Origin: Nitrospinota bacterium
GTDB taxonomy: Bacteria > Nitrospinota > Nitrospinia > JACRGO01
Assembly: GCA_016212295.1 (NCBI GenBank)
Contig: JACRGO010000015.1
Coordinates: forward strand, 1-5,244
Direction of reading: 5' to 3'
DNA length: 5,244 bases
The number at the start of each line of letters is the position of its first letter. Position 1 is the stretch's first letter. The notes under the pieces are model-generated. The model ran no database searches. It was not told the origin of the DNA and saw nothing but the letters and a program-made list of their open reading frames with translations. This document shows, piece by piece, positions 1,699 to 4,835 of the stretch. The translations under genes and the position numbers were made by a program.

Positions 1699-2137
1699 CT
1701 ATTCTTCGTAAGGTCCCAGAAAACGTTCACCGTTAAAGTGAATCAGATGAGTTGGAGACTCTGCAATCCAGACTTCCGTCTCCCACGAAATGTCATTTAA
1801 ATGCTTGATCATTGCACGTCGATCAAGAAATGCTGTCACAAAAACCAAACCGGCGGTAGAAGCCGCGAACAACTCCTTCAGTTCCTGCCTGCGTTTCGGG
1901 TTCACAGGCCCGTGGCTGGTCACGGCCTCAATTAAAACCAGCCAATTTTTTTCCACATGATGCGCTACAACATCGGGCATCTTCCCATTTGCCAGCAGGC
2001 CTGAGGCCGAGCAGCGCCAAAAGAGTCAGGGCGGACCGTTCGTTCTGTTGTTGTCTTGGAAGACCCAAATTGTTCAGGATCACCAGAGCGTCCTTGATTT
2101 TGTCTTCCGCTTTCTTCCCGCGTGCCTTATTGCTCAC
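1699..2137 (-). pseudogene. Broken PstI/BsuBI-type type II restriction endonuclease (internal deletion plus frameshift)
   Basis: Two fragments of one gene lie in different frames. The N-terminal piece starts at a GTG (2137) and reads SNKARGKKAEDKIKDAL, then LGLPRQQQNERSALTLLALLG and GKWEDA, like the helical N-terminal domain of BsuBI/PstI endonucleases. The C-terminal piece (to 1699) reads GKMPDVV, then VLIEAVTSHGPVNPKRRQEL, and ends in THLIHFNGERFLGPY, the family's highly conserved C-terminus. PD and the E of IEAVTSHG are the likely nuclease residues (inferred). Only about 150 residues remain, against roughly 316-326 in BsuBI and PstI, so some 170 middle residues are gone and the frame shifts at the join. 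The join (1976-1987) encodes WEDA in one frame and GKMP in the other. The GTG overlaps the methyltransferase stop by 11 bases (2127-2137), the normal coupled arrangement. No active enzyme is expected. Confidence 0.88.
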
Positions 2138-3266
2138 AGCTCAATATCTCATCTTCCATGATGGCGTCAATTGTTTCCTGATCGGGCATTCTATCGGCGA
2201 TGTGGACGCCGAGCCTGGCAAGCTGTTCATGAGTGGGATAGGGCATCTTACGAAGGTCGGTGGCATTAACCTGGGTATGCCCGCTAAATAGGCGGAAAAA
2301 TTGATCGACCATGCTGGAATTGAGATATAAGGCAAGCCCTTTCGCCAAGTCAGCAGGCAATCCTCTCCTCTGTTTGTGGAAGTAGTTCAGGTGATTTTCA
2401 AAGCCCACTAGGCGCGCATCGATCCTTGTGGGATCATATATAGCCGCCATGACCTGCCGCGATTGCTCCTTGGACGAAAACCTTTTTGTGAGAACGTAGA
2501 ATCCTGCCTCGACAAGAAGATCTGATGTCCCGGAGGATGACGCGATGGCATTGGGTTTATTTCCAGATTCAACTGGCCATTTGATGAAGCCGTTCAGGAA
2601 ATGGCACGGATAGATAAGAGGAGCTGTTTCTTGTCCTGGGGTCTGTGTAAGTCGTTCACGCACCCTGAAGTCTACAACCCGTCCCGTGGAGACACTAAGA
2701 CCCAGTTTGTCGAGAGAAGATGTAAAACATTTTATTCTCTCAGCTGGCCTTCCGTCGGAATCATCGCCGTTCAAATGAATAAACATATCCCGGTCGCCTG
2801 AGTGAATGACCCGGCTGTATGGAACTGACAGGGCGCGCGTCTTGTCGAAATCGAGGCCATCGGACGTGGAAATCGTGATTGACCCAGGCTTTTGGACTCC
2901 CCGGACGGCGTGATAGATGACGTTTTCCTGTAACACGCCGTCGTCGCCGAACGCATTTTTGCGCGATTCGAATAGGTGAATCCATTTGAGTCCCATGGCG
3001 CGTAAGAACGCAACGCGGAATTTTCTGAAATAAGGGCCATTGCAAAAGCTGCGCGGCGTTATCGCCGCCATTTGCCCGCCAGGTTCCAGCAGTTGCATCG
3101 ACAACCAAACAAAAGCCGCATACAGGTTTGCCACCTCAATGCCGGAAGAATAGAGTTTCCTGCTCATGGCAGTCTGGCTATTGATCTTCATATAGGGCGG
3201 ATTGAGGACGACATGTGTGAATCGCTCGCGTGGAACGGCAAAAAGAGAGTCTCCTGACGAGAAATG
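2127..3266 (-). pseudogene. N-terminally truncated PstI/BsuBI-type adenine-N6 DNA methyltransferase
   Basis: This is the C-terminal three quarters of an Eco57I/PstI-like DNA N6-adenine methyltransferase. The frame is open from 3266, just after a TAA at 3267-3269, and reads SGDSLFAVPRERFTHVVLNPPYM. NPPY (3192-3203) is catalytic motif IV. The ATG at 3191 lies directly behind this motif, so it cannot be the true start. Downstream are PRSFCNGPYFRKFR (residues 46-59 counted from that ATG) and near the end HTQVNATDLRKMPYP (305-319), typical of the target-recognition half. The frame is otherwise unbroken to its TAA at 2127. About 380 residues remain, against roughly 500 in PstI/BsuBI methyltransferases. 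The missing N-terminus would hold motif I, the AdoMet-binding FxGxG-like loop, so activity is not expected. The recognition site is unknown; CTGCAG is known only for the namesakes. Confidence 0.87.
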
Positions 3267-3688
3267 TTAATCGTCTTCACTTCGCATAAGACCTTCTGGC
3301 AATGCAGTTCCCCCTCCAGGTCGGGTGTTTCAACTTCGTCTATGGTGGCCTGTGGAATGAATTGGACATTTGAACAGCCAATGCTACGCAGATAACTATG
3401 GCCTTTCGCCTGATTTAGGATTGAGAATAGCTGTTGCCACCCTCGCCCTCTTTGGTCTTTCTTGGCCAGATAGGGGTGCGCCTCTTTCTTCAAGAAAGCC
3501 CATGACGCCAAGTCGAGCCCTTGTAGATAGCTCTCCAGTTTCTCGTAGCATGGCTTGGTCCTATTCCATGTATCGCTAAGTAAGCTATCGAAGTCATGGA
3601 AATATGTGTTTGGAGCATTGGGGTCTTCACACATATCCCAAAGTTCGTAAAGCCTGGGAAATTCGTTACGGAACATAGATGGGGGCAT
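3188..3688 (-). pseudogene. Truncated PD-(D/E)xK nuclease-like gene joined to the methyltransferase remnant
   Basis: I do not recognise a named family. From the ATG at 3688 the product begins MPPSMFRNEFPRLYELWDMC. It continues through GRGWQQLFSILNQAKGHSYL and VQFIPQATIDEVETPDLEG to KVLCEVKTINIS. PD at residues 122-123 and E-V-K at 136-138 form a good PD-(D/E)xK nuclease signature, with a hydrophobic strand (VLC) just before the EVK. After INIS the frame runs into sequence that encodes the methyltransferase in another frame, so the last 20-odd residues (RQETLFLPF to the stop at 3188) are spurious and the true C-terminus is lost. A TTG at 3718 would lengthen the frame but lies in the repeat at 3691-3780, so I prefer 3688 or the ATG at 3676. 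No clear ribosome binding site precedes either, and the gene's own start may also be damaged. It could have been a third gene of the restriction locus or an unrelated neighbour. Confidence 0.6.
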
Positions 3689-3690
3689 AA

Positions 3691-3780
3691 GGTTCACGCA
3701 GATACGCAAAGGCCGCAAATGGTTCTATCATTATTATGCTTCCCTTTTTTCTTTGCGCTCCTGGCTAGCCTTGCGTGAAA
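3691..3780. repeat. GCAAA-rich palindromic intergenic repeat
   Basis: The left arm starts TTCACGCA (3693-3700) and contains degenerate tandem units ACGCAG, ACGCAAAGG and CCGCAAATGG. The right arm holds TTTGCGC (3752-3758) and ends in TGCGTGAA (3772-3779), the exact complement of the left outer end. An internal GGCTAGCC palindrome sits at 3763-3770. TTCACGCAAAG/GCGCAAAG palindromes are, to my general knowledge, widely dispersed between genes in environmental bacteria. This copy lies between hpnH and the broken nuclease gene, exactly at the edge of the degraded block. On the minus strand it could form a large hairpin 3' of hpnH, but no T tract follows. Confidence 0.6.
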
Positions 3781-3830: not shown

Positions 3831-4835
3831 TCAAGAAGACTTCATGTTCCAGACGATCATTTCCCATAAATCCGAGAAGCGTTTTCCCACTTCGCGGACC
3901 ACGGTCGGCTCGAACCCGCAGTGCATCATGCAGTTTGCGCATCTGGGATCATTCCCCACGCCGTATTTCTCCCACGCGGTCTTTTCCATCAAGTCCTTGA
4001 AGGTGGGATAATGGGCGTCGGTGATGAGGTAGCACGGGCTCTTCCACCCCTGCGGGTTCCTGGTGGGATTGCCCCACGGGGTGCATTTCAGGTCGCGCTC
4101 CCCCATGCAGAACTTGAGGTAAAGGGGGGTGCTTTGCAGTTTATACCTGGTGGAGAGCTGGTATACTTTCTTGAACTTTTCATGGATGGACTTACGGTCC
4201 AGGAATATGTCCCTGCCCACGTCTTCATAGCCGAAGGCCGGGGCCACGAGCATCCCGTCGATTTTAATTGAGTCCAGCAGCGCGAAAAGCTCCTCTATTT
4301 CATCCATGTCCGTCTCCTTGAAGATAGAGGTATTGGTGCACACCCGGAACCCCTTTTGCTTCGCGGCCTTGATGGACTGTATGGCCTGCGCGAACACCCC
4401 TTGCTTGCCTGAGATGGAGTCATGTGTCTTTTCCATGCCGTCCAGGGAGATATTGAAATTCAGCCTTGGGCTGGGCTGAAATTTATGGAGGGATTTTTCG
4501 AGGAGAAGTCCGTTGGTGCAAAAGTATATATGCCTGCCCCTTTTAAGAATTCCGGAAATAAGCTCACCTATCCGCGGATAAATGAGCGGCTCTCCCCCGG
4601 TCACCGACACGACAGGCGCGCCGCTTTCCTCCACGGAGCGGAGACAATCTTCCAATGGGAGGCTCTCGGCAAGGGAGTCCTTGTATTCCTGGATCCTGCC
4701 GCACCCGCTGCACTCAAGGTTGCAGGCATGGGTAGGCTCCAGCATGAGGACCATGGGAAATTTTTCCCTTGAGGCAAGCCTGTTCTTCAAGAGATAAGAC
4801 GTGAGGGAAATCTGCAAACTAAGAGGAAAACGCAT
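3831..4835 (-). CDS. hpnH: Adenosyl-hopene transferase HpnH (radical SAM)
   Basis: HpnH is a cytoplasmic radical SAM enzyme. It adds the 5'-deoxyadenosyl group of S-adenosylmethionine to diploptene, giving adenosylhopane, the committed step from C30 to extended C35 bacteriohopanepolyols. The 334-residue product starts MRFPLSLQISLTSYLLKNRL. It has the CxxxCxxC cluster motif as CNLECSGC (C38, C42, C45) behind MLEPTHA. GGEPLIYP (80-87) is the SAM-binding GGE region, and FCTNGLLLEKSLHKF and FNISLDGMEKTHDSI follow. The C-terminal DUF3463-like part has GERDLKCTPWGNPTRNPQGW, SPCYLITDAHYPTF (C268) and CANCMMHCGFEP (C299, C302, C306). Length and motifs indicate an intact enzyme. There is no evident Shine-Dalgarno sequence before the ATG, and a promoter-like TATAAT lies only 5 bases upstream. 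No other hopanoid gene is visible in the window. Confidence 0.96.
   Translation of the reverse strand: MRFPLSLQISLTSYLLKNRLASREKFPMVLMLEPTHACNLECSGCGRIQEYKDSLAESLPLEDCLRSVEESGAPVVSVTGGEPLIYPRIGELISGILKRGRHIYFCTNGLLLEKSLHKFQPSPRLNFNISLDGMEKTHDSISGKQGVFAQAIQSIKAAKQKGFRVCTNTSIFKETDMDEIEELFALLDSIKIDGMLVAPAFGYEDVGRDIFLDRKSIHEKFKKVYQLSTRYKLQSTPLYLKFCMGERDLKCTPWGNPTRNPQGWKSPCYLITDAHYPTFKDLMEKTAWEKYGVGNDPRCANCMMHCGFEPTVVREVGKRFSDLWEMIVWNMKSS

Follow-up and report, generated by a model that had tools for sequence, protein, structure and literature searches.

A PstI/SdaI-type restriction endonuclease pseudogene whose two pieces meet at a 10-bp word repeated in intact relatives

The window, meaning the whole 5,244-nucleotide stretch of DNA analyzed here, carries a PstI/SdaI-type restriction endonuclease pseudogene. 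On the minus strand, from position 2137 to 1699, an endonuclease gene of the BsuBI/PstI/SdaI family is present as two pieces in different frames. The pieces meet at TGGGAAGATGCC (window 1976-1987, minus strand), where the plus strand reads GGCATCTTCCCA. We consider it probable that the pseudogene was produced by the loss of 530 bp in a single deletion between direct repeats of 10 bp, most likely through slippage or related annealing, with a separate deletion in the adjoining methyltransferase gene. The features concerned are collected in Table 1.

Table 1. Location and description of features in the window.
Feature	Position	Strand	Description
Endonuclease pseudogene, 5' piece	1976..2137	-	GTG start at 2137 to W-E-D-A, 54 codons; fragment of N-terminal HTH/recognition domain
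Endonuclease pseudogene, 3' piece	1699..1986	-	G-K-M-P-D-V-V to stop; second half of catalytic domain with PD...E motif
Junction word GGGAAGATGC	1977..1986	-	Sole kept copy of the 10-bp direct repeat
Cognate adenine methyltransferase remnant	2127..3253	-	PF07669 match (Eco57I-type); longest ORF 2127-3191
Unrelated upstream ORF	3254..3718	-	155 codons; joined to the methyltransferase remnant in a different frame
hpnH (adenosyl-hopene transferase)	3831-4835	-	Intact, E 3.2e-134

Both pieces are recognized by Pfam, each in part. The 5' piece matches just positions 2-45 of the 140 in the HTH domain PF17728 (E 1.5e-11) and ends with 15 frame-shifted codons. The 3' piece matches the catalytic domain PF06616 over positions 67-154 of 154 (E 2.4e-39, above the curated cut-off), and positions 1-66 of that domain are absent. 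Across the junction, the frame of the 5' piece runs ..GK-W-E-D-A and that of the 3' piece ..G-K-M-P-D-V-V. Together with the Pfam matches, these frames confirm the initial annotation of the window, which had read the junction word as W-E-D-A in one frame and G-K-M-P in the other. An active BsuBI/PstI/SdaI enzyme is expected to have a continuous frame of ~322 codons; the window gene has two frames and spans 439 nt, compared with 969 nt. The loss amounts to ~177 codons, which takes away the greater part of the recognition domain along with the beginning of the catalytic domain.

Relatives were gathered by scanning one genome per species across 84,980 species with the 3' piece as the query, and the best 80 loci were kept. 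Against the closest relatives in this set, the 3' piece shows 90-94% amino acid identity; the 5' piece is 78-83% identical to its counterparts in L003, L005, L006, and L009. The eight nearest intact genes (L003, L005, L006, L008, L009, L016, L018, L021) all comprise 966 nt plus the stop codon, hence 969 nt, and align without indels. One of them, L006, matches SdaI (PDB 2IXS) over residues 9-322 (E 2e-77). Aligning the two fragments to intact homologues, the check suggested in the initial annotation, places both in one gene of fixed length, with breaks that fall at codons 51-54 on the 5' side and at codons 228-231 on the 3' side. The spacing given at that stage (W..A near residue 50 and GKMPDVV about 170 residues later) proved close to that of the intact relatives, in which the tryptophan is residue 51 and GKMPDVV begins 177 residues further on. 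As 530 is not a multiple of 3 (530 mod 3 = 2), loss of the middle and change of frame can be read as one event. The proposal that a single deletion between direct repeats accounts for both is supported by the fixed gene length and the exact 530 bp.

Intact relatives carry the repeat on either side of the stretch that the window gene has lost. In L003 and L006, GGGAAGATGC is exact at both breakpoints, at nt 152 and nt 682, with a spacing of 530. These two genes read GGCAAATGGGAAGATGCAACC at the N site and GAACACGGGAAGATGCCTGAT at the C site, and the window has GGCAAATGGGAAGATGCCCGAT, in which GGGAAGATGC is retained once. One copy has been kept, and the other copy has been lost exactly together with the intervening DNA, since the difference between the intact gene and the remnant (969 - 439 = 530) equals the repeat spacing. 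The GGGAAGATGC pair is the sole direct repeat of at least 10 bp in the L003 and L006 genes. Deletions of at least 100 bp in the L006 gene could create ~360,000 junction positions; 11 of these show at least 10 bp of homology (a probability of 3.0e-5 for a random junction), and all 11 correspond to the GGGAAGATGC repeat.

Agreement between the two sites varies among relatives. The exact 10-bp pair occurs in two of the 67 intact genes that are readable at both sites (L003 and L006 only). It is near-exact in L005, L008, and L009, and 8-9 of 10 positions agree in L008 and some others. The W-x-x-A and G-K-M-P codons set a baseline of roughly 5-7 of 10 across most of the family. The three relatives nearest to the 3' piece (L003, L006, L008) all have GGGAAGATGCC at the C site. 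In L005 and L009, the N site is TGGAAAGATGC or TGGGAGGATGC and the C site ATGGGAAAATGC; each is one base off the window word, and the N-site mismatches fall at different positions. The word of 10-12 bp suggested for both ancestral sites is present as an exact 10-mer in L003 and L006, but not in L005 and L009. The initial annotation had held that a closest intact homologue without the word at one breakpoint would count against it; L005 and L009 (81-85% DNA identity) depart from the word only weakly, by one base per site. The form CATGGG at their C site would let the overlap reach 12 bp.

Among the best 80 loci, no intact relative exceeds about 86% DNA identity for any part. Because of this distance, and with no near-identical parent carrying the word, we infer the exact ancestral repeat of the window lineage from these relatives. 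Viral contigs and plasmids searched for closer intact relatives yielded at best 68-71% amino acid identity in the 3' part, below L003-L009, and the exact junction sequence was absent from the viral contigs.

We propose the following course of events. The first copy of GGGAAGATGC would have encoded W-E-D-A (codons 51-54) and the second G-K-M-P (codons 228-231) in the other frame. A deletion would then have removed one copy of the word together with the intervening DNA; replication slippage without RecA, or a related repair by annealing at short homologies, is the most likely route. With a length of 530 bp, not divisible by 3, this deletion would also have shifted the frame and silenced the toxic enzyme in one step. 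In bacteria, DNA flanked by direct repeats is known to be prone to precise deletion, with slipped mispairing independent of RecA among the recognized causes (PMC3519483). Sequence alone does not separate slippage from annealing-type repair as the cause of the 530-bp deletion.

The partner methyltransferase is dead too, a finding that is new relative to the initial annotation. No intact cognate adenine methyltransferase is found next to the endonuclease. The remnant lacks its first ~140 codons (the 5' third), including motif I / DPGAGAGVLF; homology to relatives starts at about 3253-3256, and the 5' part is absent from the contig and the rest of the genome. At this second junction (~3253), the truncated gene abuts an unrelated ORF out of frame. 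The ORF appears cut at its 3' end, where the methyltransferase remnant begins. It has no family match and one distant relative was found (L084, 41%); by eye, its TPDLEG...KVLCEVK resembles a PD-(D/E)xK nuclease motif.

Loss of modification is lethal when the endonuclease remains (reviewed in PMC3874152), so the endonuclease should have died before or together with the methyltransferase. We infer an order in which the endonuclease was lost first or together; the 5' third of the methyltransferase would have been removed by a separate deletion, tolerable only with or after endonuclease loss. The damage to the restriction-modification system looks recent, because dN/dS is low and no further stops have accumulated in the system: in pairwise comparisons, the values for both endonuclease pieces and for the methyltransferase piece fall within or near those of intact pairs. 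The system is flanked by the gene for a glycosyltransferase-like membrane protein and by hpnH, both of which are open. With an intact hpnH, the host is probably a hopanoid producer. In the one genome of the same genus, hpnH adjoins a phosphoglycerate-mutase-like gene and the PstI/SdaI-type system is absent.

It is unlikely that the junction is an artefact of library preparation or amplification (template switching at short homology) or of assembly, with the real gene intact. The contig is one of 237 in an incomplete genome (90.5% complete), and amplification chimeras arise at short homologies too. However, k-mer assemblers do not join sequences over a repeat of just 10 bp, and elsewhere in the genome there is neither an intact copy nor a copy of the missing middle, nor any further match to a PstI/SdaI-type enzyme. 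There is also a second lesion in the partner gene, whereas hpnH and the glycosyltransferase-like gene on either side have open frames, which fits natural decay.

Different parts of the locus have different affinities. The methyltransferase and the 5' half have L005 and L009 as nearest relatives (81-85% DNA identity), and the 3' half has L003, L006, and L008. Approximately-unbiased (AU) tests reject a grouping of the methyltransferase and 5' piece with L003/L006 (p 0.0016 or lower) and weakly reject a grouping of the 3' piece, which is 285 nt long, with L005/L009 (p 0.036-0.040). Such a pattern would be produced by unequal crossover or gene conversion at the shared word between two diverged PstI-type copies, with the methyltransferase and 5' piece from an L005/L009-like parent and the 3' piece from one grouping with L003/L006 or L008. 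We regard this origin as quite improbable. The genome has no second copy, the support from the short 3' piece is weak, and even in the intact L005 gene the affinity shifts from one part to another, so that we read the conflict as a trace of older recombination in that lineage. More broadly, trees of different parts of the methyltransferase-endonuclease locus of L003, L005, L006, L008, L009, and L016 conflict, which suggests past recombination between relatives. The single 530-bp deletion remains our preferred account of the junction.

Judging from their sequences, loss of the endonuclease gene recurs in the family, because other members are broken too. The 5' ends are truncated in L007, L010, L061, and L064. 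Independent internal out-of-frame deletions are seen in L029 (4597-5279, about 238 bp lost) and L127 (G341:C233:9800-11700), both of which retain a 5' piece and a 3' catalytic part. Since the 3' piece was the query, this sample of broken members favours copies that keep it. For the junctions of L029, L061, L064, and L127, the nearest intact relatives share only about 65-77% DNA identity, too distant for repeats to be read. The PstI-type catalytic domains of L040 (2359-3069), L041 (4572-5276), and L056 (4650-5276) are preceded by an N-terminal region that is shorter and of another kind, which may be a variant recognition domain.

One reading of the coding overlap between W-x-x-A and G-K-M-P is that it forms a built-in frame-shifting deletion hot spot of the endonuclease family. 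We hold this to be very doubtful; if it were true, host lineages could irreversibly switch the enzyme off in one step, repeatedly. It is extremely improbable that the short ORFs still function, as a 5' DNA-binding regulator or a 93-residue catalytic piece starting from the ATG inside the word: both pieces are open with low dN/dS, but this is expected of a recent pseudogene, and the 5' piece has only 44 of 140 HTH-domain positions plus its frame-shifted codons, the catalytic domain in the 3' piece is missing the first 66 of its 154 positions, and the adjoining methyltransferase is broken as well.

Deletion between short direct repeats is a well-known, textbook mechanism, of which the window is an unusually clear example. 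The classic case of slipped mispairing between short direct repeats is E. coli lacI. No report of the window deletion event was found in the literature searched. The window documents, cleanly and in a form that can be checked, the silencing of a potentially lethal endonuclease, with one deletion of exact length, a repeat visible in relatives, and a frame shift. Taken together with the other broken family members, it could be the starting point for a systematic tally of the ways in which restriction genes die.

Compared with SdaI (PDB 2IXS) and the BsuBI/PstI family (PF17728 and PF06616), the window gene keeps the start of the first Pfam domain and the end of the second, but it is short of about 177 codons and out of frame. 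As in other short-direct-repeat deletions, in E. coli lacI and in mycobacteria (PMC3519483), one copy of the repeat is kept and the other copy and the spacer are lost exactly. The repeat in the mycobacterial construct is 38 bp long (PMC3519483), whereas here it is 10 bp with a 530-bp spacing and is deduced from relatives rather than observed. Likewise, in decayed type II restriction-modification systems, the endonuclease is lost and the methyltransferase is not kept intact. The window differs from these in that part of each gene remains legible, and the lesion in the endonuclease is a readable scar.
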